Below, piece by piece: positions 1 through 35,100 of a stretch of DNA of 36,363 bases. Each line of letters opens with the position of its first letter. Position 1 is the first letter of the stretch. Under the pieces are notes generated by a model. It was given only the letters and a program-made list of their open reading frames with translations. It was not told the DNA's origin and did not search any database. The stretch is from a virus, in the IMG/VR virus record IMGVR_UViG_3300022602_002741, positions 1 through 36,363 of that record. The stretch is one strand, 5' to 3'. Position numbers and translations under genes: made by a program.

Positions 1-254
1 TGAGCAAAGACAAACACAAACCTTATCAATGGATTGATGGAGAAACTGCTGATCGCATTACTAGTCTTAATCTAAAAGACTATCGTGCGTATCTCAAAAA
101 AGAATTAAAGCAATGGAAGAAGAATCCTAAGACAGAAGATAATCCAGACGGCTATTGGTTACACCCAGACGATGTCGCAGGCAGTATACGCAGGATAGAA
201 GCACTCAATCTAATTATTGACGACTTCATTACAACAGAGGACACTATAAAATGA
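1..254 (+). CDS. Small hypothetical protein, start just outside the window
   Basis: The reading frame is open from the first base. Bases 1-2 (TG) would complete an ATG if the preceding base is A, giving a protein of about 83 residues beginning M-S-K-D-K-H-K. It is very polar, with a lysine-rich stretch (KKELKQWKK) and a tryptophan/tyrosine-rich middle. It ends in TGA at 252-254, overlapping the next start as ATGA, so the two genes are probably translationally coupled. No signal peptide, membrane segment or catalytic motif is visible and I do not recognise the family. It opens a run of seven very small genes, the usual setting for phage accessory proteins. Confidence 0.7.
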   Translation, partial: SKDKHKPYQWIDGETADRITSLNLKDYRAYLKKELKQWKKNPKTEDNPDGYWLHPDDVAGSIRRIEALNLIIDDFITTEDTIK

Positions 255-478
255 AATTAGAAGACTTACAACATATATTTAGGTTTCAAACTACAGCAGA
301 AGTAGATTACGCACCAAAAGATTCTGTAAACTATTTGCTTATTGAGGGGCAAGATCGAATTCCTGGCACACATGACGCTCATGACTTAGAGGGACTAATA
401 GTCTTACTAGACAACTTTGTATTTGAAGGATATAGAGATCGTACTCCTATATTTGTTAAACCAGAAGTGATTGTGTGA
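251..478 (+). CDS. Small hypothetical phage protein (75 aa)
   Basis: A 75-residue acidic protein with no recognised domain. The sequence alternates short hydrophobic strands and acidic turns (for example VNYLLIEGQDRIPGTHDAHD), suggesting a small soluble alpha/beta protein. There is no membrane segment or cysteine motif. The start overlaps the previous stop by four bases (ATGA) and the stop overlaps the following GTG start (GTGA), so it sits inside a coupled chain of small genes. Function unknown. Confidence 0.7.
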   Translation: MKLEDLQHIFRFQTTAEVDYAPKDSVNYLLIEGQDRIPGTHDAHDLEGLIVLLDNFVFEGYRDRTPIFVKPEVIV

Positions 479-711
479 TTGAATTGAAAAACGTAAAAGT
501 AGGCATGTTCAATTTGCCAGGACTAAGTTTTCCAAAAGACCCTAGTCCTGAAATAGTTGAAGAGATGATGGCTTGGGCCAAGGAGAACCATTGTGGATTC
601 TGCGCTGGTCCAAGGCTTTGGAGTTTTAAGTCCGAAGCACAGAGAGATTGGTTTATCTTACGATGGATCGATCATATTCCCAAAGAAGATATCAAAGAAG
701 ATAAAGAATGA
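475..711 (+). CDS. Small hypothetical phage protein (78 aa), GTG start
   Basis: A 78-residue protein starting at GTG 475, which overlaps the preceding stop as GTGA. The stop overlaps the next gene as ATGA at 708-711. The centre has a C-G-F-C pair (HCGFCAGPRLWSF) and a tryptophan-rich C-terminal half ending in acidic and lysine residues. The CxxC spacing could suggest metal or redox binding, but a single pair is weak evidence. An in-frame ATG ten codons downstream is possible, but GTG fits the overlap pattern of the neighbours. Function unknown. Confidence 0.65.
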   Translation: MIELKNVKVGMFNLPGLSFPKDPSPEIVEEMMAWAKENHCGFCAGPRLWSFKSEAQRDWFILRWIDHIPKEDIKEDKE

Positions 712-893
712 ACGAACGAATTCGACAACTTGCTCTCGAGGCTGGATTCTTAAACAAAGATGAAGAATCTATCGAATATTTCGCCGAGTTGATTGTGAGG
801 GAATGTATTGACACCGTATCTGATTGTAGTGTAGAATACTGCACCAGACCACAGATTGTTAGTGAGATTAAACAACATTTCGGAGTTGAATAA
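708..893 (+). CDS. Small conserved phage protein, MNERIRxLA...HFGVE type (61 aa)
   Basis: A 61-residue helical protein beginning MNERIRQLALEAGF and ending IKQHFGVE. I recognise this start and end as typical of a family of tiny proteins common in uncultured aquatic phages; no function is known to me. The middle reads FAELIVRECID, with three cysteines between residues 33 and 45. The last codons (HFGVE) contain GGAG seven bases before the next ATG and so also serve as the ribosome binding site for the following gene. It overlaps the previous gene by four bases and the next by one (TAATG). Confidence 0.75.
   Translation: MNERIRQLALEAGFLNKDEESIEYFAELIVRECIDTVSDCSVEYCTRPQIVSEIKQHFGVE
864..890 (+). 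repeat. Copy 1 of a coding block that doubles as ribosome binding site
   Basis: This 27-base block encodes EIKQHFGVE at the end of the gene at 708-893. It matches 1326-1352 at 25 of 27 positions, with 17 identical bases in a row (874-890). It carries GGAG (882-885) exactly seven bases before the next ATG. Confidence 0.75.
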
Positions 894-1036
894 TGCACAT
901 ACTTAATGACATTGAAGATTTGTATAATTTGATTGATGCGGTTATTCTTGAAGGTCGGCCATTGAATTATGAAACAAAACAAGATATAATGTATTTTATT
1001 ATGCAGATGAAATACACAAGAGGAGTCGAATCGTGA
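893..1036 (+). CDS. Very small hypothetical protein (47 aa)
   Basis: An ATG at 893, overlapping the previous TAA by one base and preceded by GGAG with a seven-base spacer, opens a 47-residue frame ending in TGA at 1034-1036. The protein begins MHILNDIEDLYNLIDAVIL and looks like one or two amphipathic helices. No family is recognised. It is supported by the strong ribosome binding site and by the GTGA overlap with the next gene at 1033-1036. Confidence 0.6.
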   Translation: MHILNDIEDLYNLIDAVILEGRPLNYETKQDIMYFIMQMKYTRGVES

Positions 1037-1212
1037 TATATCGAGCAGGCATGATATTGCAATCTAAAACAAGTTCTGTTAAAATTAAACTTACATCAAA
1101 ACATAACGGAAATGGCCATTGGAACTCTATTAAAATTAATTCTGGTTCTTCAAATAAGAACCATAGAGTTTATGAAGGCACATTAGATAAATTTTATAAG
1201 GTAGAAGAATAA
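1033..1212 (+). CDS. Very small basic hypothetical protein (59 aa), GTG start
   Basis: A GTG at 1033 overlaps the preceding TGA and opens a 59-residue frame ending TAA at 1210-1212. The product is basic, with many lysine, serine and asparagine residues (SVKIKLTSKHNGNGHW), and has the alternating pattern of a small beta protein. The upstream AAGAGGAG around 1018-1025 can act as its ribosome binding site. No family is recognised. Confidence 0.6.
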   Translation: MIYRAGMILQSKTSSVKIKLTSKHNGNGHWNSIKINSGSSNKNHRVYEGTLDKFYKVEE

Positions 1213-1358
1213 TGCATACATTTAAAACACTTGATGTTAAACAATATATGTGTTCTCCTACCGGTGTTCCAATAGTAATGAAACATGAATATTATGTGGA
1301 ACATTCAATCAAAGGTTGCTCAATAGAAATTAAAGAACATTTCGGAGTTGAAGGATGA
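1212..1358 (+). CDS. Very small hypothetical protein with HFGVEG tail (48 aa)
   Basis: ATG at 1212 overlaps the previous TAA by one base. The 48-residue frame begins MHTFKTLDVKQYMC and ends IKEHFGVEG before TGA at 1356-1358. The last nine residues match the end of the gene at 708-893, although the rest of the two proteins is not similar. The shared DNA block places GGAG exactly seven bases before the next ATG in both cases. It overlaps the cytidylyltransferase-fold gene by four bases (ATGA). Function unknown. Confidence 0.6.
   Translation: MHTFKTLDVKQYMCSPTGVPIVMKHEYYVEHSIKGCSIEIKEHFGVEG
1326..1352 (+). repeat. Copy 2 of a coding block that doubles as ribosome binding site
   Basis: This block encodes EIKEHFGVE at the end of the gene at 1212-1358 and matches the block at 864-890 at 25 of 27 positions. 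GGAG (1344-1347) is again seven bases before the next start, ATG 1355 of rfaE2. The host proteins are otherwise unrelated. Confidence 0.75.
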
Positions 1359-1756
1359 CAACCGTAGTAGTTAACGGTACGTTTGATATCTTGCATCCGG
1401 GGCATATTGCAATGTTAAACACCGCCCGTAGTTTGGGCAATTATCTTATTGTATGCATCGATACTGATCGTAGAGTTAAAGAACTCAAAGGCGATAAACG
1501 TCCGATTAATGATCAAGTATTCCGTAAGGTAATGCTACAAAATCTCAAGGCAGTAGATATTGTGGAATTTTTTGACAGTCAAGAAGACCTAGTCAGATTG
1601 CTTAAACTTTACAAACCAGATGTTATGGTTAAAGGTAGTGATTGGAAAGGTAAAAGCGTAGTAGCAGAAAAATATGTAAAAGAGATCTTTTGGTATGATA
1701 GAATCAACGAATACTCAACAACAAAAATCATTCAAGATATTATTAGTAGGGGATAA
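1355..1756 (+). CDS. rfaE2: Heptose 1-phosphate adenylyltransferase-like nucleotidyltransferase (RfaE2/HldE C-terminal type)
   Basis: A 133-residue enzyme of the cytidylyltransferase-like fold. Visible motifs are VNGTFDILHPGH (residues 6-17, nucleotide-binding HxGH as H14-P-G-H17), KGDKRPI (46-51) and YSTTKI (120-125). This set is typical of RfaE2, the half of HldE that converts D-glycero-beta-D-manno-heptose 1-phosphate and ATP to ADP-heptose. The nearest alternative is TagD-type glycerol-3-phosphate cytidylyltransferase; the GDKRPI motif and the adjacent RfaE1-like kinase favour the heptose role. It precedes the kinase, the reverse of the order in fused bacterial HldE, and overlaps it by 62 bases. 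The ribosome binding site is the GGAG at 1344-1347 in the previous gene. Full length for a stand-alone domain. Confidence 0.85.
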   Translation: MTTVVVNGTFDILHPGHIAMLNTARSLGNYLIVCIDTDRRVKELKGDKRPINDQVFRKVMLQNLKAVDIVEFFDSQEDLVRLLKLYKPDVMVKGSDWKGKSVVAEKYVKEIFWYDRINEYSTTKIIQDIISRG

Positions 1757-2450
1757 CTGCACTGACATCTATCAGTTTGGTACTGTAGATCGTCTTAGTC
1801 CAGAAGCACCTATTCCTGTATTTGTCCCTAGCCATACTGTAGAAAAAGCAGGCATGGCTGGCAATGTTCTTATCAATCTCAAAGCACTAGGTTGCGATGT
1901 TGATTTTCTTTGCGGACATGCTAGCAAAAAAACTAGACTAATCGACAGTCGTAGCAAACAACAAATTGTTCGCATAGACGAAGATGTCAAGTCTACCCCA
2001 ATCGCTATTGACTCGGAGATTCCTAACATATATGATGCTATCGTTATTAGCGATTATAACAAGGGCATTGTTAGTTACGAGTTAGTTGAACAATTAATTG
2101 CAACCAAGAAACCTGTATTTGTCGACACAAAGAAAACGGACTTAGCACGTTTTCAAGGTGCATGGGTTAAAATTAATGAACTAGAGTTCAGTAGACTTAC
2201 TAGCGAGTGTACAGGAATTATTACAACCTTGGGTAACAAGGGTGTGCGCTTATGGGATGAAATTTATCCCAGTTTGCCTGTTGAAGTAGCAGATGTGTGC
2301 GGAGCAGGTGACACATTTTTAGCCGCACTGGCTTATCAATACCTAAATACAAACAACATAGAAGATGCCGTAAAGTTTGCCAACAAGGCCGCAAGCATTA
2401 CAGTACAACATCTAGGAAACTATACACCAACATTAAAGGAAATACAATGA
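1695..2450 (+). CDS. rfaE1: Compact PfkB-family heptose 7-phosphate kinase-like protein (RfaE1/HldE N-terminal type)
   Basis: A 251-residue ribokinase/PfkB-family protein. The N-terminal signature ILLVGDNCTDIYQFGTVDRLSPEAPIPVF (residues 15-43) is close to that of RfaE1, which phosphorylates heptose 7-phosphate at C1. Other landmarks are ISDYNKG (118-124), VDTKK (143-147), TTLGNKG (177-183) and the catalytic GAGDTF (203-208, base D206). Bacterial RfaE1 domains are usually over 300 residues. Here, after VDFLCG (69-74), the sequence jumps directly to KKTRLID (78-84), leaving out roughly 35-45 residues that normally form the lid and sugar contacts. The only start in frame before the conserved core is ATG 1695, so the gene overlaps rfaE2 by 62 bases. 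Its stop overlaps the HIT gene by four. The kinase and rfaE2 would together make ADP-heptose; whether the shortened kinase is active is unknown. Confidence 0.82.
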   Translation: MIESTNTQQQKSFKILLVGDNCTDIYQFGTVDRLSPEAPIPVFVPSHTVEKAGMAGNVLINLKALGCDVDFLCGHASKKTRLIDSRSKQQIVRIDEDVKSTPIAIDSEIPNIYDAIVISDYNKGIVSYELVEQLIATKKPVFVDTKKTDLARFQGAWVKINELEFSRLTSECTGIITTLGNKGVRLWDEIYPSLPVEVADVCGAGDTFLAALAYQYLNTNNIEDAVKFANKAASITVQHLGNYTPTLKEIQ

Positions 2451-2845
2451 GTGAAGAAATTTTTAATGGCCCAAATCATATCACAGAAAGCTCTGCACCA
2501 TGGAACAATGTTGTACACGAAGACTTTCATGTAGCTGTTTATCTAGACAAATATCCTGTAACAGAAGGACATTTATTGTTTGTACCAAAATATAATTCAG
2601 TAGGAGTACTAAAAGATGCGTTTGAAGATGCTTTCCAACATGGTCAAAAAATGGTTGAAATGGGAGCGTGGGACGGTTTCAACATTGGATTTAATTACGG
2701 CGAAAGTGCGGGTCAAACTGTCAACTGGCCTCATATCCATCTCATCCCACGTAGAAAAGGTGATGTCGAGGATCCAGTTGGAGGCGTCCGCAACACGATC
2801 CCTGGCAAAGGCAACTATCGCTCTCCACAATATAGCCAAGGATGA
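2447..2845 (+). CDS. HIT-family nucleotide hydrolase/transferase
   Basis: A 132-residue histidine-triad protein. It has the usual order: an N-terminal strand ending in YPVTEGHLLFVPK (36-48), a helix, and the active-site strand GQTVNWPHIHLIPRRKGD (89-106). The canonical His-x-His-x-His appears as W94-P-H96-I-H98, so the first histidine is a tryptophan, while the middle (nucleophilic) and last histidines remain. The tail GGVRNTIPGKGNY (112-124) is common in HIT proteins with this variant. Family members hydrolyse or transfer nucleoside monophosphates from dinucleotides, adenylated compounds or nucleotide sugars. It overlaps the heptose kinase by four bases (ATGA), which suggests a link to ADP-heptose or ATP metabolism; this is inference. 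Confidence 0.85.
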   Translation: MSEEIFNGPNHITESSAPWNNVVHEDFHVAVYLDKYPVTEGHLLFVPKYNSVGVLKDAFEDAFQHGQKMVEMGAWDGFNIGFNYGESAGQTVNWPHIHLIPRRKGDVEDPVGGVRNTIPGKGNYRSPQYSQG

Positions 2846-2855
2846 ATCTGAAAGA

Positions 2856-2891
2856 TTCAAAGGTAGAGGATTATTGCAAATTACAGGTCGT
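2856..2891 (+). pseudogene. Remnant of a GH19 (chitinase-like endolysin) active-site motif
   Basis: In the frame of the following small gene, codons 2856-2891 read FKGRGLLQITGR, which closely matches the substrate-binding motif of glycoside hydrolase family 19 lysozymes and chitinases. No other part of that fold (catalytic glutamates, helices) is found before or after, so this is best read as recombination debris from an endolysin gene. The motif straddles the likely TTG start at 2874. It may also be translated as an N-terminal extension if the next gene starts earlier. Confidence 0.5.
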
Positions 2892-3323
2892 CAAGGTCCG
2901 CATCCCGGATTCGTTGCCGCCGCACAGGCTTGGGGTAATAATACAGGAGCATATAATACTGCTATAGGTTATCAAGCAGGGTATACTGTAGGAGCAGGAT
3001 TAGGATTGCAACAACCAAATAATAGTATTTCATTTCATAATCAAGGCAAAGCCGTATTGATTATTACCAAAGACGGTGATGTAGAATGGCATGGTAAACC
3101 CAGCGAAGCCGCAGACGCTCTGCAAACTGTTTTCCAATTTAAGGTAGAAGATATGCAAGGTATTACCAAAGCGGCCAGACGCAGATATTATCACAGGGCG
3201 TGTGAAAATATTCTAAATAAAGCAGAGAAAATGACACATGAAGAATTTCTTGACTTCTTACGCAAACATGTGTATAATAAGGAAAGACGTGTTATCATAG
3301 ATGCATTACAAGGAAGGATATGA
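2874..3323 (+). CDS. Mosaic small phage protein with YadA-like repeat and conserved C-terminal domain
   Basis: The frame is open from 2616, but that start would lie 230 bases inside the HIT gene. The first sensible start after the HIT stop is TTG 2874, preceded by AGAGGA, giving 149 residues. Residues about 22-42 (NNTGAYNTAIGYQAG) resemble the head repeats of trimeric autotransporters and phage fibres. The rest, from KAVLIITKDGDVEWHGKPSEAADAL to the end, resembles a small-protein family I associate with uncultured aquatic phages; it is helical and basic (GITKAARRRYYHRACENIL). Function unknown. The protein seems assembled from three unrelated pieces: a GH19 scrap, a fibre repeat and this domain. 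An earlier start within the HIT gene (ATG at about 2763) cannot be excluded. Confidence 0.6.
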   Translation: MQITGRQGPHPGFVAAAQAWGNNTGAYNTAIGYQAGYTVGAGLGLQQPNNSISFHNQGKAVLIITKDGDVEWHGKPSEAADALQTVFQFKVEDMQGITKAARRRYYHRACENILNKAEKMTHEEFLDFLRKHVYNKERRVIIDALQGRI

Positions 3324-3547
3324 AAACAGCCAAAACTATTTTTGACGAAACTATGGAACGTGTTAAACGGTTACAGCGTTTTGAAATCAAAAGAGAAGTA
3401 GGGCCAAATTGGATCCCAAATGGTACTATTCCTTTTAACATCAAAGCAAAAAACGGAATCGCTACGTTCGAAGTATATGCAGAGTTTTTACAAGACGCAG
3501 AAGATCAAGTTACAGCATATTTAGAAAGAGACGAAAATGAAGATTAA
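3320..3547 (+). CDS. Small hypothetical phage protein (75 aa)
   Basis: A 75-residue protein beginning MKTAKTIFDETMERVKRLQRF and ending in an acidic tail (LERDENED). The layout suggests an N-terminal helix followed by a small beta sheet (IPFNIKAKNGIATFEVYAEF). The ribosome binding site AAGGA lies just before ATG 3320, within the end of the previous gene, which it overlaps by four bases. It overlaps queE by eleven bases at its end. No family recognised. Confidence 0.7.
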   Translation: MKTAKTIFDETMERVKRLQRFEIKREVGPNWIPNGTIPFNIKAKNGIATFEVYAEFLQDAEDQVTAYLERDENED

Positions 3548-4370
3548 GGTAGCGGAATTATTTTATAGCATACAAGGTGAAGGACGGTACATGGGTGTAC
3601 CGTCTGTTTTCTTACGTACATTTGGATGTAATTTTAAATGTGCAGGATTTGGTATGCCACGTGGTGAACTAAGCACAGAAGCAGATGAACTTGCTACTGT
3701 AGCTCACTTGTATAACAAATATGAAGAACTACCTTTAGTATCTACAGGCTGTGATAGCTATGCCAGCTGGCACAAAGATTTTAAAAATCTAAGTCCATTG
3801 ATTACCAATGAAGCTATCGTAGAACGCATCAAAGAAATTCTTCCTCATAATGAATGGCAAGAAGAACATCTTGTAATTACAGGTGGTGAGCCGTTGTTAG
3901 GTTGGCAAAAGAGCTATCCAGAATTGTTAGACATGATGCCAAACTTAAAAGAAATCACATTTGAAACAAACGGTACTCAACAATTAATTCCAGAATTCAG
4001 AGAATACTTACATAACTGGAACCGAGATGGTCGTGAAATTACGTTTAGTGTGAGTGCAAAGCTGCCAGCAAGTGGTGAAATTTGGGAAGATGCAATTAAG
4101 CCTGAGATTGTTTGTACATACGAAGAAGTGGGTACAGCATATTTGAAGTTAGTAGTAGCAACAGAAGAGGATATTAAAGATGCAGAACAAGCAGTTGAAC
4201 AATTTAGAAAAGCGGGCTTTACAGGTCACGTATACCTTATGCCTGTTGGTGGTGTTGAGTCTGTGTACACTCTCAATGCTAGATCAGTTGCCATTGCCGC
4301 AATGAAGCGTGGATGGCGCTATAGTGATAGATTACAAGTTCCATTGTTTAAAAACGAGTGGGGTACTTAA
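3537..4370 (+). CDS. queE: 7-carboxy-7-deazaguanine synthase QueE, phage type (radical SAM)
   Basis: A 277-residue radical SAM protein. The N-terminus VAELFYSIQGEGRYMGVPSVFLRTFGCNF is a textbook QueE start, and VITGGEP is the SAM-binding GGE motif. QueE converts 6-carboxytetrahydropterin to 7-carboxy-7-deazaguanine, the third step toward preQ0, used for queuosine or for 7-deazaguanine DNA modification. The cluster loop is unusual: C31 and C35 are present, but the position of the third cysteine is phenylalanine (CAGFG). A cysteine followed by D-S occurs at C72 (STGCDSY), after an insertion of about 35 residues, and is the likely third ligand. I recall similar GFGMP/GCDSY forms in other phage QueE proteins. 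No queC, queD, folE or DNA transglycosylase is visible here, so the rest of the pathway must lie elsewhere or in the host. Confidence 0.9.
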   Translation: MKIKVAELFYSIQGEGRYMGVPSVFLRTFGCNFKCAGFGMPRGELSTEADELATVAHLYNKYEELPLVSTGCDSYASWHKDFKNLSPLITNEAIVERIKEILPHNEWQEEHLVITGGEPLLGWQKSYPELLDMMPNLKEITFETNGTQQLIPEFREYLHNWNRDGREITFSVSAKLPASGEIWEDAIKPEIVCTYEEVGTAYLKLVVATEEDIKDAEQAVEQFRKAGFTGHVYLMPVGGVESVYTLNARSVAIAAMKRGWRYSDRLQVPLFKNEWGT

Positions 4371-4567
4371 TGGAAACACATCAGCGAACACTAGCAAGAG
4401 CAGTATCATATAGAATTATTGCTTGTTTGATTACGGCATTGTTTACTGGACTAGGTACTGCTATTGCTATTCACGTTTTGCTAACTCTTGTACATTATGT
4501 ACACGAACGTGTTTGGTTAAAAGTTAAATGGGGAACACAATGGCAGGGTTCCGATCAAAAAGACTAA
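4370..4567 (+). CDS. DUF2061-type small membrane protein
   Basis: A 65-residue protein from ATG 4370, which overlaps the queE stop by one base and has GGGG seven bases upstream. An upstream ATG at 4358 is less likely. The start METHQRTLARAVSYRIIA and the end HYVHERVWLKVKWG match the DUF2061 pattern of short two-helix membrane proteins. The hydrophobic segment (about residues 12-42) is shorter than two full spans plus a loop, so the hairpin is compact or reduced to one long helix. It should sit in the host inner membrane. Role unknown; the family is widespread in phages and bacteria. Confidence 0.75.
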   Translation: METHQRTLARAVSYRIIACLITALFTGLGTAIAIHVLLTLVHYVHERVWLKVKWGTQWQGSDQKD

Positions 4568-4815
4568 TGGGATTAAGTAGAATGAGCGATGAGCAAGAAT
4601 ATGATTCATTTTGGAATAGAGCAATAGTTGAGCTTAAATTCAGTCTTTGGCCTAGAAAGTCTTATGAAAATAAAAAATGGATATTTGGCCCTGCGTATAG
4701 AGCATGTGCTACATGGACTGGCCCAGGAGATTCTATACACGAATATCGATGGTTGACCACAGATGAATACTTATTTGGTTTATTAAAAGGAAAATATGTT
4801 AAAAGACATTATTAA
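4540..4815 (+). CDS. Hypothetical protein (91 aa), tryptophan-rich
   Basis: The chosen start ATG 4540 follows GGGGAACACA and gives 91 residues; an in-frame ATG at 4528 would add four. It overlaps the DUF2061 gene by 28 bases and the next gene by 20. The product is rich in tryptophan and tyrosine (SFWNRAIVELKFSLWP, KKWIFGPAYRACATW) with a basic C-terminus. No catalytic motif, signal peptide or membrane segment stands out, and the family is not recognised. Confidence 0.65.
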   Translation: MAGFRSKRLMGLSRMSDEQEYDSFWNRAIVELKFSLWPRKSYENKKWIFGPAYRACATWTGPGDSIHEYRWLTTDEYLFGLLKGKYVKRHY

Positions 4816-5182
4816 TTGGTTTAAAAACATCAAAGGCAACAAGGCCGCAAAAGAATATGTTCCAGACATTACTAAACTAAGTCCGAAAGATGCGGCGACT
4901 GCCCTACGTGAACCTTGGGTAGCTGTGTTAGATACTCACATTAACAAAGAAAATGTACGTAATGGATTCTTTGAGCTTGATTGGAATGACTATTTTATAG
5001 TACAATTAAGAGATGCAGGATACCGCGGAGAAACTGACGAAGCAATCGTCGATGCGTGGTTTAAAGATCTGTGTAGAGATGTAGCCAGTGAAGAAGCTGT
5101 TCCCCCAGGTGCTGGTGGGTTCCGCCAATCGGGCTATATTAATGTAACCAACCTCGGCAACGGGAAATCGGAAATCAGTTAA
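4796..5182 (+). CDS. Conserved phage protein of unknown function (128 aa)
   Basis: A 128-residue protein whose core SPKDAATALREPWVAVLDTHI...GFFELDWNDYFIVQLRDAGYRGETDEAIV resembles a protein conserved in T4-like cyanophages and relatives. After a basic amphipathic N-terminal helix (residues 1-20) it has a mixed alpha/beta core and a C-terminal low-complexity stretch (PPGAGGFRQSG). No enzyme motif is visible. The ribosome binding site AAAAGGAAA precedes ATG 4796. The stop overlaps the RNase H start as TAATG, which links it to the nuclease in translation. Confidence 0.75.
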   Translation: MLKDIINWFKNIKGNKAAKEYVPDITKLSPKDAATALREPWVAVLDTHINKENVRNGFFELDWNDYFIVQLRDAGYRGETDEAIVDAWFKDLCRDVASEEAVPPGAGGFRQSGYINVTNLGNGKSEIS

Positions 5183-6168
5183 TGACTTATATTTTAGTAG
5201 ATACAGCAAACACATTTTTTCGTGCTAGACACGTAGTACGTGGAGATATCAACGATAAAGTTGGTATGAGTCTTCATGTTATTCTTAACTCGGTTCGTAA
5301 GGCATGGAAAGATTTTGGTGGTAGCCATGTGGTGTTTTGTTTAGAAGGTCGTAGCTGGCGAAAGGATCATTATGCACCATACAAAAGAAATAGGCAAGAA
5401 GCCAGAGATTCTTTAAGTCCAAAAGACGCAGAAGAAGATAAAATCTTTTGGGAAACATTTGATGACTTCAAATCATTTATACATGAAAAAACAAATTGTT
5501 CAGTACTGCAACATCCGCAACTAGAAGCAGATGATTTAATTGCCGGCTGGATTCAAGCACATCCAAATGATAACCACGTTATTATTTCAACAGATGGAGA
5601 CTTTGCACAATTAATTGCACCGAATGTAAAACAGTACAACGGTGTATCAGGTGTAACAATTACACACGAAGGTTATTTTGATGAAAAGGGAAAACATGTT
5701 AAAGACAAAAAAACAGGCGTTGCCAAGACTGCTCCAGACCCCGAATGGCTCCTATTTGAAAAGTGCATGCGTGGAGACACGTCAGACAACATCTTTTCTG
5801 CTTTCCCCGGAGTACGCGAAAAAGGTACTAAAAACAAAGTTGGACTCAGAGAAGCATTTGCAGACAGAAACTTAAAAGGATATAATTGGAATAATCTGAT
5901 GCTTCAGAAGTGGGTTGACCACGAGGGTGTAGAACACAGAGTTTTAGATGATTATACACGTAATGTAAAATTATGCGATTTAACTGCCCAACCCGAAGAA
6001 ATTAAGACTTTAATTAAAGAAGCTATTACCCAAGAAATTGGTAAACAGAAAAATATTGCTCAGGTTGGAATTAGGCTAATTAAGTTTTGTAGTACCTATG
6101 ATTTAGTCAAGGTTTCGGAGCAAGCAGAGAGTTATGCACACCCACTTAACGCTAGATACAATCAATAA
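5182..6168 (+). CDS. rnh: T4-type RNase H / 5'-3' flap exonuclease
   Basis: A 328-residue FEN/5'-nuclease family protein. Metal-binding acidic residues are visible in order: D7 in YILVDTANTFFRA, the LEGRSWRKDHYAPYKRNR arch and substrate loop (54-71), LEADD (114-118), STDGDF (136-141) and CMRGDTSDN (195-203). The H2TH-like part follows (FPGVREKGTKNKVGLREAF). The order and spacing match T4 RNase H (about 305 residues), which removes RNA primers and flaps during lagging-strand synthesis. It probably acts with a phage replisome encoded outside this window. ATG 5182 overlaps the previous stop by one base. A 61-base gap follows before the next likely start. Confidence 0.9.
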   Translation: MTYILVDTANTFFRARHVVRGDINDKVGMSLHVILNSVRKAWKDFGGSHVVFCLEGRSWRKDHYAPYKRNRQEARDSLSPKDAEEDKIFWETFDDFKSFIHEKTNCSVLQHPQLEADDLIAGWIQAHPNDNHVIISTDGDFAQLIAPNVKQYNGVSGVTITHEGYFDEKGKHVKDKKTGVAKTAPDPEWLLFEKCMRGDTSDNIFSAFPGVREKGTKNKVGLREAFADRNLKGYNWNNLMLQKWVDHEGVEHRVLDDYTRNVKLCDLTAQPEEIKTLIKEAITQEIGKQKNIAQVGIRLIKFCSTYDLVKVSEQAESYAHPLNARYNQ

Positions 6169-23190: not shown

Positions 23191-26100
23191 TTATTCACCT
23201 TCAAGTGGACTTCCATCTTCTGCTTGTAGCTCGCCGTCTGTTTCAAGTGTGATCACTAGATCGCCACCATAGTACGAATCGTCTGGTATATCTGCAGGAC
23301 TTTCGCTCAAGAATCTAATTACTGGGCTATCTGTAATTTCTTGCATGCTTAATCCAGGAACTTCTTGATATAACTGTGTACCTTGTCGTTGGAAAACAGC
23401 TAAAGCTAGATTAGGTTCCACACCGTTAACAATATTTAACCGTAATTCAGCTCGATCCACAATTTGTATATCTTGATATGTTTGAACTATAGTGGTTCCT
23501 GTATATGCAGGAATTAATTCTTTATGAGTAATATTTGTAGAGGTTGTAACTGAAATTGATCCAGGAGTTGATCCAGATAATACCGCATAGGAAATTACAA
23601 TCAACCCGTTTCCGCCCGCACCTGTTTGTGCGGTCCCCCCAATATTTGTATTGGTTCGGTGGATGCCACCTCCACCTCCTCCGCCGGGTAAAGCTCCGTT
23701 TCCACCTTTACCGGTTGGACCATAGGAATAACTAGCATTTAACCCACTATCGCCACCACTGCCGCCACCTATATTAATAATAGATCCTGCAATTGATGCT
23801 GTTCCAATAAAGGAATTCGTAGTTGCTGTCCCATTAACTCCATATAACCCATAACCCGAAGTACTTGGACCGTTTGGGCCGCCAGCGCCTCCGCCTCCGC
23901 CAAATTTTACTACAGCGGTGTAACCTGTTAAACTAGCAACATAGCTGGTATTTGAATTACCAGACATTGTCATTGTAGAATGTCCAGAGCCTAATGCGCC
24001 AACATGACCGGTGCCTGGAGTTCCACTACTGCCTCCACCTCCTCCTGTAGCATATACGTAAACAGCACCAGAAGTAGATGTTGTGTCTCCAAAAATAGTA
24101 GTGCCACCATCGTTTGATGTGGCAGAAACATATTGCTGTGCAGGAGCAACCGTAGGTGTTCCAATTAATGTCCCATCACCGCCTTTTCCTACTACAAAAC
24201 TTACTATAGAATTAGCAGACTGAGGAATATTAGCAATGGCCGCATATCCGCCGCCGCCGCCACCGGTGGATCCTACAGATTCATCACCACCGGATCCACC
24301 CCCTCCCCAAATTTCAACTATATTAACAGCACTAAAATCATTAGGAAGGGTAAATGTTGTTCCAGAATTAATATCTAATATAATAGATTTCCATTTACCA
24401 ACACGAGACAGATATGGTGCAACCGTAATTGTTGTTGAACTAGTTGTTATCGCCCCAGTAGTTGTTGTTAATGTCTTAGTGAATGTATTGCGCTGAGCAT
24501 AATTGTTTGTTCCTTGAACAATATTAAATTCAGGTTGTACGATACTATCACTTGAAATTCCAATGCTGTTTGTACTTGAAGAATCAAATGTAACATTACC
24601 ATCATGTTGTGTAACGTTTGACAAGTTTCCAACCAATGCACCTGTGGCTGTGAATACTGCGTATGCTTCGCCATTTGGAATTTGACTTATTGTAATTTGT
24701 GTAGTTGCTGTATAAACTGCCTTAACGTAATATAATTCAGTAGTTAATAAATTACCAAACCCGTTTCCTGTAAATGCAATAGGAGTATTTGGTACAATCC
24801 CTTTTACTGTATCGAGGTTTAAATAATTTCCATCACCAACAGTTCCGCTAACATTAACAAATGGTGTTACTACAGTTGGTTTTAATAATTTACGTCCACC
24901 ATAATATACTTCTATTGTATCTGTTTCGGCAGGTACAGGTCTTCCATATATATCATCTGTGGTATTTGCAAGATTAATATCACTTAATACATAAGTCGAA
25001 GCACCAGATGTTATAAATTTTTGTATTTTTGTACTTTCATTTACGTTGATTGTTTGATTAGCACTTTGATCTATAACTTTTGCTCCAGCATTATAGGCAT
25101 TCTTAGCACCGGTACCTAATGTTCCGCGGCGTAATTGTCCTAAAATATTTCCGCTGATAGTAAAGTATTCAATACGTTCTCCAAAGATGTAAATCACTCC
25201 GGGTAGATTTAATTGTGTATTTGGTTTAGATAATACTGAACCATCCTCAACATAAATGTAAACATCGGCCAGCTGTAGAGGTTGTGCTAGGTAAGTAGAA
25301 TTTGCAGAGCTCAGGCGTTTATATCCTGTTCTACCTAAAATATCTGTAAACATTCTATAACCTAATGCCCCTATGTATGCAGATGTACTCATGCTCATAA
25401 TTACTATAACGTCATTGTTAGACTGATAGTATTTAGGTAAAATTTTTACGGTAACTCCATCTGGTTCTACTGTAAAATCTATATTTGTAATTAATGTAGC
25501 GCCGTTGTATTCAACCCAAATATAATTTGTGTCAAATACAGGACGCTGAATTACATAGGTGTTAGCAGGATTACCGTTGAACTTTTCTTTTCTAATGTGA
25601 CTACCATCATGGTTGGTAAAACTAATAATTCTTATAGTATCATTTGAACTACGAGGTACGCTGATAGTTTGTGAAAGGAATAATTGATTAGCTTCTATTA
25701 GATAATCATAATTGCTATCTAATACCGTAATTGCCAATGCATCACCTGTTTTAATAACTCCGGGCGTAACTGAGATAAAGTTTTGTTGATTGTTAATTGC
25801 ATTTTGTATTTTTGCAATATTTTCATCAACAATAGTCAATTGCGCATTTAGATTTGCTAAAGAATTAGTTAAAAGAGTATAGTTAGCTGTACCAGTTGAT
25901 ATCACCAATAGTTCGCTTTGTACATTACTAATGTCAGTAGTTAAGGTATTTCGATATGCTTGTTGTTCTACAAAAGCTGTTGAAATATTAGAAGATTGAT
26001 TTCCAAGGAAAATTTCTCCTTGGGGTTGATCCATAACATAGTCAATACCGTATTGTAACAAATCACCGTTACGATACACTTCTAGGTGAGCTACGTCAAT

Positions 26101-29100
26101 AATGCCTCTATTGTATTGTATTTCTTGACGAATAGAGAATTGAGTTTGTCCTTCTTCAACAATATAATAAACTGTTTCAGGCGGAATTAATCTTACTCCA
26201 TTGTATTCAACTATAACTTGGCTGTGATAAGGTTTTGCTGAACCCGGAGGTTGCTCTAATGTAAAAATGTTGCCTGAAGGATTTTTAATTATTTGTTCAT
26301 ACACTTCACTGTAGGCCTTATGTGGTTCATTAAAGAACCATGCTTGAGTAAAGTTGATTGCGGCGGGGTTGGCAATACTAATGCTCGGTTTAGCTATTGA
26401 AAGTAAGGCACGCGGTGTATCTGAACCACTGCTTTCATCGGCTGGAGTTAACATCCATCCATTGATTGCAATAATAGCTGTATTAGGAATATATGTTTTT
26501 GCCCATTTGGTTCCATCAATTGGATGGGTAAATTGGTTATCTGTGAATAGTTGAACATGTGTAGCATCTATAAATTTAGCAAATGATGCTCCATTTAATA
26601 GTCCTAAACCAGTATCATTAATAATCACTGCGGTGCCATCACCAGAGTTAGTTGATGTACTCAACTGTAAAGTAATTGGAGATCCGTAGTTTGTAATATT
26701 CACAATCGTAGCTGTTGTTGCCTTGGAAACAGGTAATCCATTAACAGTAACATAAACATCTTTAATGTCTGTATAGGCCGCAGAGCTTATAATATTAGTG
26801 TAAGGATTGGCATTAACATCGGCCTGCTTGTCGAGCAATCCAACTCCGCCAGTTTCAATACAGCTAATGCTTAACCAACCGGGGCCTGCTAGCGGTGTTA
26901 CCAATCCTAAGTATTGATTACTAATATCAATTAGATAATCGGTACCATGATGCAATGGAGTGTTGTTTGCAATTACAATATAAGAACTAGTATTTTGTCC
27001 TCGTGTAATTGGGAATGATTGTGTTACTCCATCTAACTGGTATCTATAAGTTTTAATTAGTGGAGAAGATTCCGGTAACTGAGTATACACGTTAATTGCA
27101 ATACTATCTTGTACTTGTCCAGGAATCATTTCTTCCGGTGCATAGGCCGCATTGGCACTAATAAATGAATCACCGTCAACTACAATTTCAGCGGGGTTAA
27201 CACCTAATGTAATTGCGGGGTTGTAATCGGCACCAGATAATAATGTATCAAGACTGTACTCATCACTAGGAAGAACTGTACCATCATCTGTTATATCACG
27301 GAAAGTAACTAGGTTATCCGTAGTAGTACTAAAAGCAGTTAACGGTACAAAAATTGTGCCTGTTGAACCTGCGGCTAGTGTTATCGTGGCAGTTGTAGCT
27401 GTACTATTTGGCAATATTGTGAAATTTGTAATTCTAGTATTGTTCAAATAAGCTGTAATTGTTGCTGTAGAATTTACAGTATAAGGAATTGGAATTTCAA
27501 TTTTTCCATAACTTCTAGCAGTAATTTCTCCCAGAACACTTTGTATCTTCAACTGAACTTCTGTTAAATTATTTTGATCTATAGACAACTGTGTTGTAAC
27601 TGATGTATACTCAGGGTTACTAACTTGTTCTGGTCCGAGACCTGTATTAACAATTATTGTGCTAGGTATAGTTGGCAACAATGCATTTAGTGTTTGAATC
27701 GCACTGGCTAAAACTGCTTGTTGATTTTCTAAATCTGCCAACTCAGAATTTAAAAATACAAGTTGATTACTCTGATTGCTTTGAGGATTTAAAACTGTAG
27801 CAAAATTTGTTGTTTGTTGGAAATTATCCCAACTTGTTGACCAATAAGGTAATGTATCCCACCCGCCTGAAAAACTGTAAGGCAACGTGTCTATTTTTAC
27901 TCCCGGATACTCTAAGCCACTCATTAGTAATGTACCGGTATTGCCTGGCATACCACTTGTTGGCTCATAGTAATCTTGCATTCTATCAAACGCATTATAA
28001 AGTTCAATATGTTTAGGATAGATAATTTTTACTAAAACATCAGGTGCTGGGATAGTAGATAAAACTAATATTGCCAATTTCTGTTTATAGTGAGCCATTG
28101 GATATGTGGTAGTATCTACAACATTGTATTCAATTGAGTAAGAATCAACTAATTGAAAAACTCCATTTACATATAAACTAATTTGTGCTTTATCTGGTGT
28201 AGGAACCCATGTTAACGGAAAATGGTAAGTTACACCGTCTCCATAAAACACATCCTGATATTTGCGGGTATAACCTACCGACGAATCATTAGGAAAGTTT
28301 GGTAATCCAATTTCTCTACCTTTTGAAATTCTATCAAATTTAATTTCAACTTTAGTTGATCTAACTAGATCATTATAAAGTTGTGCATATACTCTTGCAG
28401 GTGTATTTGCACCTCCACCGCCTTGTAGTATAACGGTAGGTGTAGCAGAATATCCGCTTCCGCCGTTTGTTACTTCAATACTAGAAATACTACCTTTAGA
28501 AATATAAGCTACTGCTGTAGCTCCTTTACCCGGATCTCCAGCGGCAGGAATGATAGTAACTGTTGGAGGATTAGTATACCCACTACCTGGGTCAGAAATT
28601 ATAATTTCTCCCACAGAATATGAATAATTTTGGAACCATGTTTTCCAAGGTTGTAATGTTAGCTGGCTGTTTCCAAATCCAACTGTTCTGAATCTTGTTT
28701 GTAATGAATCCCAATATGCCGGTAAATCATAATCGCCAATAAATGTAGAACTTACATCTGTACTTGTATAATTTACTGTAAAATTACGAATTTTTGTGTG
28801 GTATGGTTTAACTTCGTTAATATAGTCTTCATAAAAACTACTGTCTTGAAGTTTGTATGTAGGACGTTGATCTAGAGCACCAGCATGATTTGTAACTCCA
28901 ATAAACGCAGTTTTAAATGCCCAATCTAAATTCTTTTGTTCGCTTAACGCATATTTTACTGCTTTTAAGAATGTTAAATTCCAATATACCGCAAGGTCGT
29001 TTATAAACAGATCATCCTTAACAGATATTAAAATATTTCTTAGTTCTTCATCCGCTGATTGGTCCCATTCTGTTTGGTCAAACGCCGTTATTTCATCAAA

Positions 29101-32100
29101 TGCATATGGATCATTTTTTAATGACCATAAAGTACTTAAGAATTGAATAGTTCCGTTTTCGCTAACCATTACGTCCCAATTAGGACTAAATGTTCCTGTA
29201 GTTGTTCCGGGAGGAGTTCTACGTAAAATTAAATATCTTCCATCTCCTGAATTTTTTACTTTAACATAATTGCCTTCTGGAATAGATAATAAAATATCTA
29301 ATTCATAGGTAGAGTCAACTGTAGCAACAACTGGTTGCAATGAATTATATGTTGGATCATACCAATTTGTATATTTCCAGTATTGTGAAGTATCGTAAGA
29401 TTGTGTTCTTATCTTAATCCAGTTAGACAGTTTAGCATTCCATTGATATATAGCCCATTGATTAAGACTATCTGTATCTACCAACACCACCACACAGAAT
29501 GGTCTTATTGACGCTGTGGTCCCGGGTGTATATCCAGAACCTGGATTAATTATTTTATAACCAATAACTTCACCGAGTGCATTGCAGATTGCTTGAGCAA
29601 CTGCTCCGGTTCCCTTGCCATTAATTGTAATATAAGGAGGATTTGATGAACTATATCCCGAACCAGGATTGCCTATTTTTAATCCTTCAATTGCACCATT
29701 AGAACTTACTAAGACAGACGATATTGTTGCCTGCTCAAAATATTTTGTATCTATTTGATTTAATGAATATAAATCTTCTACTACTTGATCATATAAAGAT
29801 AATGACGTAGATGGCAATGGTTCTTTTGCACTAATATTTGCAAAATTTTTAATTCCTGTAGTTAGATTTACAGCCAACACACTATTGATATATTCAAATA
29901 TATTTGCAAGAGCAGATAATCTGTTTACAAACAGACTTTGACGAGGTAATACTGTTACGCCATATTGTAATCTGTTAGGTAGTGTTGGGTCCGGAACTTG
30001 GTTACCGACGCTATCTGTTCCTACCAAGCTGTCAATTAATTTTCTTGACAACATAGTATTTGGTAGACTTGTGGGATTACCTTCTTCAATTAATAACCAT
30101 TCTGTATGACGAGGAACTGTGTTACCAATTAAATCCATTTCAACATGTAGATGAATTTGATCTGAAATCAAATCAGGTTTAAGATTTACTAGTGCTATAC
30201 TATCTGGTGCTTGGAAAGTAATATACTTAACACCCTGTGCGCTAGGATTAGCGATCAGTTGCGCTGTAGAATATGCACTAATTTGTCTTGTTGGAATATT
30301 AGGAACTATTGTTTTATTTTTTACCCAATAATAATAAACATTAGTAAATGCATTGGTTATTGCATTATAAACTTGTTTGACCGAAACTACACTATTATCA
30401 GGGAACTTAGGTTGTCCGCTAATTCCTTCCGATAATCCGTCGGGTGTATCTGCCAGCGATGCCCACTGGCTTGGTAGATAATGTGTACCTACCCATTCGT
30501 AAACATCAATTGTGCTTCCTGGGAACATACCGTTCCAGTTATTTTTACGATAATCTGCATTACCTTGTTCGTACCACACAAATTTTACAGTAGATAGATC
30601 CCACCATAGTTCACCTACGTGGTCGTCGATCCAGTTAATATTACTATTAACTACAACACCACTTACACCTAAACTGTAAACAGCAGGGTCAAACATTGTT
30701 TTGTAAGATAATTCTTGATCAGCTTCGCCTGAGATTTTTCCTTTCACAGGATCAATTATTTCTAAATAATCTTTTACTTGCTCAGTAAAATCATTTAGTG
30801 TATATGCACGATTAATTCTTGTTAAATCAATCATGTCAGTTTGTTCTCTTAATTTTTGCCAAGATTTAACTGTTGTGTCATTTTCAGCAAAAATAACTAT
30901 TTCTCCACCTTCGTGTCCATTAAAATCAATGACTCCAGGTGCACCGACAACAATAGCAGAATCTGTAATGATTGTAGAGGTTCCAAACTTAGGAAGATCA
31001 GCAGAGCTAGCTGGAATTAATTCTTGTCCAAATGCAAATTTAGTATTAAATCTATTATATACAAAAGCATTACCTGAATCATTAACAGATGAATAAATTT
31101 TTGTTGAATTTGAATCAAACGTAGTTGGATTTGGTCGAAGAGGAGATGTATCATCTAGTTGATATGCAACTCCGCCAATTTTAGCTTGTGTGTATGTATC
31201 AAATGTTGCACGAGAACCTAAAATTGTACCTGATGATGAAATGACTAAAGTATCAGCCGTTGCATCCATAGAAATAAATGACCCAAAATCTCCGGTGTCA
31301 CTCAAGTTTGGAATTCTAATGTCTTGCAATGGAACATATACTCCATTTGTAAGAGTCGCAATAACTACTGCACCCGTAGCGCCGATTAAATTAGATGTAG
31401 CATTAGGAACTGTTATAGCTAGATAACTTCCGTCTGCCGACATTACTACTTGTGTACCTATTTGATGATTTGTGGTAAAATAAGGTCCTGTTGGATTAGA
31501 AGGGGTACCATACCCTAACGCATTATTAATATCTGCCGCTTGGATGACTTGTACACCTGTATATTCTCCGTTCGCATATTGATAGATTGCAACTGCACCT
31601 GTGTCATTTGCATAACCAGGAGCACCAACCGCTACATAACTTAAATCAGCGGATCCAGAAATATTATTACCAAATTTTGATCCAGCACCAAATGTAATTG
31701 AATTTATTGTAGTTGGTAATGTTGTAGTTGCAGGAACTGTTACCGTTGTAGTTGTTCCTGTAGTAACATTGAATACATAAACATTATGTTCTCCAGGAGC
31801 TCCAACTAATACCCTCGGTGAAGACTGTTGCTGTACTGCGATTGAAGTTCCAAATAATCCGCTGTTAACTGGATTGCCGCTAGCCAATACTGCAACTGTA
31901 ACTGGTGTTGGGACCAAATTAATTATTTGTACTGTGTTAATTTTAACTAGGCCAGTATTATCAATTGAGTGTTGAGTAGATCCGGCTACTCCTGCAAATG
32001 TAGGCTGTCCGCTAACTATTTTCAAGAATGGATAGCTGACTCCTGGGGCTCCAACAAATATCAAATTATCAATGGGCTCATATGCTATGCTTGTTCCAAA

Positions 32101-35100
32101 ATTTGCAGGAATATTAGAATCATAATAAGTGTTTGAATCATTTAATCCGTAGCTGACTATTGAATCTAATTCTACAGATCTAATAGATGGTTTATTGTAA
32201 ACAAACACTCGACCAACGTCCGGATGTGGGTCTGTATCTGTTGCCGCATTTTGATATGTTATTGCTCCAACAATATAATAATTAGATCCAGGAGCCCAGG
32301 ATATAGTAGAACCAAAATTTTGATCGGCTGTTAAAGAAAGATTATTTGCAAACGAAGACGATGTAAAATTATTAGCCTTTTGGAAAACTGCCCATTTACC
32401 TGTGCCGTCATCATCGACCCATACAGTTTCTCCAATACCTGCTTTTTCTAATACTGGAAATTTTGTAACATCATCAAAATTTGACAATCTTGCTGATACA
32501 AAATTAAACATTAATCCTACAGGAATTTCTATAGGTACAGGAATTGAACTTAAGGTTGTTGCAACTGTAAATTGATTGTATGTAGGAATTTGATAAACAA
32601 TGTAAACTTGATCCAATGCTTCATTATAACGAGTAACACTTACTAAATCTCCTACATTTAGATTATGAGGAATATCTGTTGTAAATGTAACTAATTTATT
32701 GATTGGATCTGTGATACCGGCCGCAACCACCTTTGAAGGCATTACAGAATATCGCAACACATCCCAGCTACCATTTTCAGCAAAGCCAACCCAAATTGTA
32801 TCACCTTCTTGTAAATTTTTATTATTGGCAATATCTAAAATACTGTTCTTATTATACGCCGTGGCAGTAACATCATCGTATCTAGGATATCCTGCCATAG
32901 GCAATACGATAGAATTAACTTGATATGTGCTAGTTGTAGTAGGAAAGGCAGTAGCAGACGAATAGTTGTCTGGTTTTATTAAAACAGCATTTGGTGTTTT
33001 ATAATATGTAAGATTATTTGGACTTACAGGCAGAGTGTCGACAAATTGTATTACTTGTGGATTTTCTCCGAATGATGTTTCATCTAAAGTTATTTCAATC
33101 TCTTGAAGAGTTTCAAAACCGCCAAATGTGCCAACACGGAACGCCCATGTTTCATTGTAAGTTACTTCACCTTTTAAATTATGAACGCTGGCTTTGATTA
33201 ATTTGTCAATAGCATTCTTTGTTCCTTTTTCTTTAATATAACCTTGATAAAATTTATATTGTGCAATAGGATCATCAAAGATGTTATCCAAATAAGGACG
33301 AGGACTATAACCTGTTAAATGTTGTGCCATGGCTTGCACACCGGCATCAAAATTATCAATATTTAGGCTATAGAAATCTTCAAACTGATTAATTTTATAA
33401 TCAAAGTTTGGAAGCAATTTTGCTGTTGGTTTACTTGGTAGTGTATCCCAATTTGTAAAATCAAATGTTGTGGTACCAGTTAATGGAATATTTGTAAAAT
33501 AATATTTGCCAGCGTATCTTACGGTAGAACCTGCACCATAGTCTGTGTATTGTGCCCAGTCTTGAATCTGTGCGTCATCGTACACAAATCCAGGACTAAA
33601 GAAATCACCATTCCAATTTGCAGTTCTAAAACCGCTTACGTGAATTCGACGTTGTCTATATCCAGATTCAATATCATATATAATATCATTAAACAAACTT
33701 CTATTGTTAAACACCAAGGCATGTTCTTTTTGTATTGTACTAAATTCAACAAAGAATAAACCTTCAGTGGTGTTTACTGTACTAATTGTAAACACGTTGT
33801 CTTGTCGTTGTAATCCAAGACTATGCGGAGGGAACGGAGATCCGTCTGCTTTTAATACACTATACTCATAAAACGCATTGTTTAGATCATCAACAACTCC
33901 GCCAATCATGTTAAATGACAATTGATCAGCAAAAGGACTTACTGTAATAATTGAATCATCAACCCAATTTTGCGTACTCCAGTATAAAAATTCTTTTCCA
34001 GAAAATTTCCAATCTAGTGTTTGATTTAAATCTGGCTGGACTTCATTAAATGTAAATCCTTGTGTTGTTAGATATTTTCCGTATCCAACAAATAAATTAT
34101 AAACTTCTTGTACCGTAGCATAAGATGTGCCGTAAGGAACAAGTGTAACATCAGACTCAAACACTCTAGGATCATACACAGTAACCCCGCCAATCACCGG
34201 AAGAGATTTTAATTGGTTCCAATTTGCTCCTGTAAATGTACCACCTGCGGTATGCGCCAAGACACATCTATAATATATGTTAGCATAAGATGCAATCACT
34301 CCTGTTTGATAAAATGCACCCGGAGTCCATGTTAGATAAGGCTCACTACGACCACCAACATTTACAACGTTATCTGCTGTTGTAGGAAGAGGATTGTATA
34401 TTGGAAAATATGGTCTTGTTTTATCATATCCTCTAACTGTAAATCCTATTTCAGTTTTTTGAACAATAACTCCAGAAACAGAATAGGTAGCGGTTGGATT
34501 GCTTTTATTAAAATAGATAGAATAATCTTCTGATGGTAGTAATACTCCAGGATTAGAACTGGTAGGATCAACTGCATCAATAATAATTTGTAATTTGTCT
34601 TTGCTTACAAATCCACCAACTTTTGCAAATAAGTTATAGTTTATATTAGATAGATCTGTCTGTAGAGTATCAAGGTATGTATAATTTCCTTGGCGTTTAG
34701 CTTCAACTAAAAACACGCTGTATCCAGATGCTAAAATTCTATTTCCATCGCTGTCTAGCGTATTTGGGACTAGAATTGAATCAAATTGTAAGAATGTTTT
34801 GTTAGATCCATAACGATATTGCCCTGCAAGATTTTTTACCAATCTTGATGTGTCCCACATCAATGACGCATACAACGCTGGTTTGGCTAGTGCCAACATA
34901 ATCTGAACAGCAAACGGATAAAGACTGCTACGTCTCCACGCTGTTTCAGCAGGGCCTTGATCACCAAACACCCAATCTTGTTCAATTAAAATATTGTTAA
35001 TTGTGCTAGGCGCAATAATTCCTATATCAGTTACGTCACGTAAATTTCCACTGTCGTCTACAGGAATGATGTTTAACAGTCCAGGACGGACATACAACGG

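Follow-up and report, generated by a model that had tools for sequence, protein, structure and literature searches.

Organization of the locus

The window analyzed here is an entire IMG/VR virus record of 36,363 bases. It probably represents part of a larger phage genome; related records reach 150-360 kb. Megablast against phage records returned no named relative at the DNA level, and no tRNAs in the window and no RNA families in positions 1-6000 were found.

Three genes are arranged in series on the plus strand. The first (1355-1756, 133 aa) appears to encode an RfaE2/HldC-like adenylyltransferase, an HxGH nucleotidyltransferase of the heptose 1-phosphate adenylyltransferase type. For the second (1695-2450, 251 aa), a compact RfaE1/HldA-like heptose 7-phosphate kinase of the PfkB fold is predicted. 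The third (2447-2845, 132 aa) encodes a HIT-domain hydrolase/transferase and is a phage-backbone gene, which we judged to lie outside the sugar cassette (see below). The first two genes, referred to here as the pair, overlap by 62 nt (1695-1756, plus strand). One frame of the overlap encodes the C-terminus of the RfaE2-like protein (YDRINEYSTTKIIQDIISRG), and the other encodes the N-terminus of the RfaE1-like protein up to its first core strand (MIESTNTQQQKSFKILLVGD). The kinase and HIT genes share the 4 nt ATGA (2447-2450). The coordinates of all three open reading frames (ORFs) and of both overlaps are exactly those of an initial annotation of this DNA.

Among 69 measured relatives, the overlap within the pair was 62 nt long in 34 and 59 nt long in 12, with gene starts as called by a script. 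The dN/dS values were 0.055 for the kinase (window versus relative L008), 0.096 for the adenylyltransferase (window versus relative L103), and 0.125 for HIT, indicating at the sequence level that purifying selection acts on all three genes. Together with the recurrence of the same overlap in relatives, this argues that the three-ORF layout is not due to chance. Start contexts were judged by eye: The first gene (GGAG) and HIT (AAAGGA) have plausible ribosome binding sites, and no clear Shine-Dalgarno sequence precedes the kinase start. This lack, combined with the 62-nt overlap, suggests that the kinase is translated by coupling to the adenylyltransferase.

Additional reading frames were noted in the window. 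A longer ORF at 2616-3323 covers most of HIT in another frame and extends downstream of it, where it contains a fibre-like motif (NTAIGYQAG); its family (c14) recurs directly 3' of HIT in many relatives. On the minus strand, an ORF of more than 4,300 aa (23191-36363) runs off the end of the record and would encode a very large structural-type protein.

Assignment of the adenylyltransferase and the kinase

The adenylyltransferase matched the Pfam family CTP_transf_like with 63.9 bits (cut-off, 21) and PHROG 7878 with an E value of 4.8e-45. Its best NCBIfam match was rfaE_dom_II (TIGR02199, 7e-36), with a score of 123.2 bits, which is under the equivalog cut-off of 181.5. Because TIGR02199 was best by E value and the score stayed under the cut-off, we describe the protein only as working like HldC. 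The motifs HPGH, KGSD, and STTKII are conserved in 49 to 71 relatives, and H14, G16, and H17 are invariant, in keeping with the fold and motifs of HxGH nucleotidyltransferases. By its sequence, protein 1 looks like an HxGH nucleotidyltransferase of the HldC (RfaE domain II) type and is predicted to form ADP-heptose.

For the kinase, matches were obtained to Pfam PfkB (68.7 bits; cut-off, 25.8), to PHROG 8133 (1e-90), and, as the best in NCBIfam, to rfaE_dom_I (TIGR02198, 5e-44). The score of the latter, 150.7 bits, is under the equivalog cut-off of 345, the model having 315 positions and the kinase 251 residues. When solved structures were searched with a kinase profile (hmmsearch), Burkholderia HldA ranked first (4e84, 2.6e-32), followed by ribokinase (6e-13). 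Foldseek comparison of an AlphaFold model of the kinase (pLDDT 91.8) with the PDB also gave HldA as the best match (4e8y, 1e-22), the first non-HldA entry following at 2.5e-14. The TM scores by query were 0.73-0.81 against HldA entries, showing that HldA is the closest PfkB fold. The kinase is approximately 60 residues shorter than HldA, with the main gaps after residue 73 and around residues 158-171, and the PfkB catalytic residues are kept: GAGD (G203, G205, and the catalytic aspartate D206), NxxE (N161/E164), and N57 are invariant across 52 relatives. The term "compact," used for this protein in the initial annotation, is therefore apt. Both sequence and model make protein 2 look like a heptose 7-phosphate kinase of the HldA (RfaE domain I) type. 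Since both members of the pair score under the equivalog cut-offs, these matches do not prove their substrate.

The closest relatives of the two genes do not coincide. For the window adenylyltransferase, the nearest relatives are HIT-type loci (88% to L103), whereas the window kinase is closest to L008 (94%) and next to L009 (78%), where the cassette lies in a different gene context. This mismatch points to recombination within or near the pair. In phages of the HIT lineage, a second RfaE2-like adenylyltransferase, distinct from the first, was observed (150-190 aa; TIGR02199, 2e-24; L155:6384-6881, L159:6396-6893, L110:4560-5009, L128:4815-5279, and others); some records contain both it and the pair.

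Gene neighborhoods of the pair and of HIT

IMG/VR scans yielded 75 kinase loci and 80 HIT loci. Neighboring genes were clustered and then counted over the 52 unique kinase loci with full context. The adenylyltransferase was present in 51/52, a cupin in 48/52, an HldD-like epimerase in 39/52, a GmhB-like or other HAD phosphatase in 25/52, and HIT in 8/52. Dozens of phages keep the overlapping RfaE2-RfaE1 pair, among them Kyanoviridae cyanophages as well as freshwater, marine, and jumbo phages. In the complete cyanophages S-CAM3, P-SSM2, and S-SSM7, the adenylyltransferase and kinase genes, likewise in that order, are followed by genes for a small HAD protein, a cupin, and an epimerase. The epimerase of the relatives matched TIGR02197 (ADP-heptose 6-epimerase) with 2.5e-71, under the curated cut-off; such matches were found in 30 of 36 records, the best reaching 254 bits (cut-off, 274.6). 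The commonest phosphatase matched the GmhB model NF006506 with 8e-40, also under the curated cut-off. GmhB-like genes occur in 8 of the 36 records, and other HAD-like proteins adjoin the pair elsewhere. In a phage contig that was binned with a Marinimicrobia genome, a fused 379-aa kinase-adenylyltransferase is encoded together with an HldD-like epimerase, a cupin, and GmhB, and GmhB adjoins the cupin in a Bacteroidota contig. With an HldD-like epimerase, a cupin, and often a HAD phosphatase as its usual partners, the pair belongs to an ADP-heptose-type nucleotide-sugar cassette. The TIGR02197 and NF006506 neighbors thus support what the initial annotation had read from the window, namely, that the first two genes form an ADP-heptose kinase/adenylyltransferase pair.

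Several side observations were made at these loci. The contig with the fused gene (L174:4748-8985; also L175) looks like phage DNA in a Marinimicrobia metagenome-assembled genome (MAG). A 5-aminolevulinate synthase gene (L074:7594-8805, minus strand; TIGR01821, 561 bits, above the cut-off) adjoins the heptose cassette; this cluster is also present in L037, L047, and L080, and jumbo-sized records are included. In NC_006883, the RefSeq names of two genes appear doubtful. PSSM2_311 (L003:8728-9072, "phosphoheptose isomerase") belongs to a small HAD-like family with DxDGT and a weak EcbF match, and PSSM2_312 (L003:9053-9409, "cysteine dioxygenase") is the cassette cupin.

In the window, neither a cupin nor an HldD-like epimerase nor a GmhB phosphatase was found by tblastn or profile searches. 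The initial annotation had listed both gmhA and gmhB as missing from the window; this holds for gmhB, and the absence says little because the window is a 36-kb fragment. HldD-like and GmhB genes were also absent from the closest large HIT-type relatives (records of 166, 200, and 151 kb), and no TIGR02197 match was found in records G021, G023, and G028. In the window and its nearest large HIT-type relatives, the pathway is therefore incomplete or host-reliant: The epimerase and GmhB must be either supplied by the host or encoded off the fragment. A GmhA SIS-type isomerase (PF13580) was detected in 0 of 35 large records, and the idea of a GmhA hidden elsewhere in these phages was rejected on this count.

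A candidate for this step is the cupin. Its matches were weak, to mannose-6-phosphate isomerase models in 23 of 40 members and to D-lyxose isomerase in 17 of 40. In fold, the cupin model (pLDDT 91.9) is similar to D-lyxose isomerase and to the single-domain phosphomannose isomerase of archaea (TM by target, 0.79-0.83), with many other cupins ranking equal or higher in the same fold comparison. Cupins have many different functions. Because phosphomannose and D-lyxose isomerases interconvert ketoses and aldoses, we hypothesize from the model that the cupin may substitute for GmhA. Bacterial relatives of the cupin were found at eight loci in GTDB genomes; two of these are phage contigs in a Marinimicrobia MAG, and one has a GmhB neighbor. 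Among 296 genomes sampled from the phylum to which the latter locus belongs, only two cupin matches were obtained. All five cupin-holding bacterial genomes tested also have SIS proteins, and thus the bacterial holders add nothing to the replacement idea.

The product of the third gene matched Pfam PF01230 with 41.3 bits (cut-off, 21.5), showing that it has a HIT domain. It shares this domain and the middle and last histidines of the HxHxH triad with the HIT superfamily (HINT, FHIT, and Ap4A hydrolases). In contrast to that superfamily, it has a tryptophan at the position of the first histidine (WPHIH, residues 94-98, window positions 2726-2740), as do 65 unique phage relatives. Its reaction class is uncertain because of this tryptophan. 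HIT is a conserved backbone gene of the phage lineage of the window, located a few genes upstream of queE and independent of the pair. In 45 of 50 loci, queE lies at most five genes downstream of HIT. Long flanks were available for 27 HIT loci; the pair occurs in 8 of these and the second RfaE2-like gene in 6, and the remaining 13 lack both. In the window, a homologue of QueE (7-carboxy-7-deazaguanine synthase) is encoded at 3537-4370, and most relatives also have it near HIT. In some of them QueD-like genes are present in addition, pointing to a 7-deazaguanine pathway.

The initial annotation had proposed that the three genes act as one functional unit, which might make and then break a signal. 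In a fuller form of this reading, the pair would produce ADP-heptose or some other adenylylated sugar like it. HIT would then hydrolyze the product or by-products, thereby breaking the signal or limiting its level. HIT enzymes do act on adenylylated compounds. The ATGA junction in the window would provide direct coupling, but 23 of 39 pairless loci likewise show HIT overlapping the gene before it, which means that the junction is no special mark, and HIT has its own AAAGGA site. The pair is directly upstream of HIT in 15 of the 56 unique HIT loci with upstream context, yet it is absent from the other 41, where the synteny on the queE side is unchanged, and HIT is missing from 44 of the 52 pair loci. 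Genome-level scans gave the same picture. HIT is present and the pair absent in G022 (145 kb) and G026 (143 kb); all six complete cyanophages that were searched, as well as G003, G007, G019, and G020 (142-167 kb), have the kinase of the pair but no HIT; and the pair lies more than 100 kb from HIT in G025 and G027, in the latter inside a cupin-HldD-pair cassette. The second RfaE2-like gene, which is located near HIT in another clade and directly after it in L155 and L159, is in favor of the proposed unit. Overall, HIT is not co-conserved with the pair, an outcome that the initial annotation had itself named as speaking against the unit. On synteny and the genome-level scans, we rejected HIT as part of one unit with the pair and regard its action on the product of the pair as very unlikely. 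With HIT independent of the pair, the idea of a signal made and then broken loses its genomic support, and a tempting three-gene system is removed as unsupported.

Proposed role of the pair and comparison with known systems

We consider it likely that region 1355-2450 is a phage heptose-activating pair, whose HldA-like kinase and HldC-like adenylyltransferase would yield ADP-heptose for use in a surface glycan, with HIT being separate. The compact PfkB kinase would phosphorylate C1 of D-glycero-D-manno-heptose 7-phosphate, and a phage or host phosphatase would then remove the 7-phosphate. With ATP as the AMP donor, the RfaE2/HldC-like enzyme would adenylylate heptose 1-phosphate to ADP-D-glycero-manno-heptose, on which the phage HldD-like epimerase would act next in relatives. 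Ahead of these steps, the small cupin may stand in for GmhA, converting sedoheptulose 7-phosphate to heptose 7-phosphate. The 62-nt overlap would couple translation of the kinase to that of the adenylyltransferase. The product would most likely enter a surface glycan during infection, either as altered host LPS or capsule or on decorated virions. The downstream HIT gene is a separate lineage backbone gene that merely abuts the inserted pair. As a sink for the sugar, a heptosyltransferase was considered and rejected: Only 4 of 35 records had a GT9 match that exceeded the cut-off.

The pair and its HldD-like and GmhB-like partners in relatives are all under the NCBIfam equivalog cut-offs, and thus the enzymes could act on a related sugar phosphate instead. 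A non-heptose NDP-sugar, destined for either a glycan or a secondary metabolite (cf. the proposal for the S-SSM6a cluster), would agree with these scores, with the shortened kinase, and with the lack of GmhA in the 35 large records. Carbamoyltransferase, halogenase, and oxygenase genes neighbor the pair in some cyanophages, and PMC7824862 gives a wider sugar/metabolite reading. Moreover, cyanobacterial LPS reportedly lacks heptose (PMC4390846), leaving the sink of a cyanophage heptose unclear. However, independent lines lead to heptose, namely, the HldD-like and GmhB-like neighbors and HldA as the best match of the kinase in both sequence and fold, and we consider a non-heptose product unlikely. 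That the pair is functionless cargo (stuffer DNA) in this phage, a possibility that Sullivan et al. (2010) conceded for the LPS genes of cyanophages, would be consistent with its patchy presence in the lineage and with a window devoid of cupin, epimerase, and phosphatase. The low dN/dS values of both genes against close relatives, the intact active-site residues, and the conserved overlap make this extremely improbable.

The reading of the pair as heptose-activating can be extended to a tentative and rather doubtful proposal: Many large phages may own an ADP-heptose route, with a small phosphomannose-isomerase-like cupin in place of GmhA and a compact kinase coupled to the adenylyltransferase. 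This would put heptose under phage control even where host LPS is heptose-less, e.g., for virion decoration. If the cupin acts for GmhA, an otherwise well-known pathway would have a non-homologous first step.

Sullivan et al. (2010) list T4-GC 304, 305, 307, and 308 as LPS genes that co-occur in P-SSM2, S-SM2, and S-SSM7, with functionality left open (PMC3037559). The jumbo cyanophage set described by Iyer et al. (2021) comprises an epimerase, a cupin sugar isomerase, a PfkB kinase, a HIGH nucleotidyltransferase, and a HAD phosphatase, interpreted as a surface-polysaccharide system against superinfection (PMC7824862). A cyanophage announcement names heptose genes outright (PMC7378029). In the gene lists of pelagiphage and Lake Baikal surveys, rfaE/gmhC is among the auxiliary genes, and the Baikal table also has queE (PMC7029224, PMC9611531). 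In the relevant sections of the cited papers, neither the lack of GmhA nor the conservation of the gene overlap is stated, nor is the pair assigned specifically to the heptose pathway across freshwater and jumbo phages.

The phage pair has the kinase and adenylyltransferase folds and the active-site motifs of bacterial HldA/HldC-type ADP-heptose enzymes, and its relatives have HldD/GmhB-type neighbors. It differs in being encoded by separate overlapping genes in the order adenylyltransferase-kinase. The phage side also differs from the bacterial pathway by the shorter kinase, by the scores under the equivalog cut-offs, and by having no GmhA-type isomerase in the relatives examined. With the LPS clusters of T4-like cyanophages (T4-GC 304, 305, 306, 307, and 308; P-SSM2, S-SM2, and S-SSM7; PMC3037559, PMC7824862), the cassette shares a homologous pair, epimerase, cupin, and small HAD protein, and the genes of the pair also overlap in P-SSM2 and S-SSM7. 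In contrast to these clusters, the pair stands alone in the 36 kb of the window, inserted before HIT and queE with no glycosyltransferase cluster beside it. Identity between window and cyanophage proteins is 37-44% for the kinase and 42-55% for the adenylyltransferase. The pair is thus a further example of the phage sugar cassette already described in cyanophages in 2010 and 2021, and large aquatic phages well beyond the isolated cyanophages commonly carry such an overlapping kinase/adenylyltransferase pair for a sugar of the ADP-heptose type.
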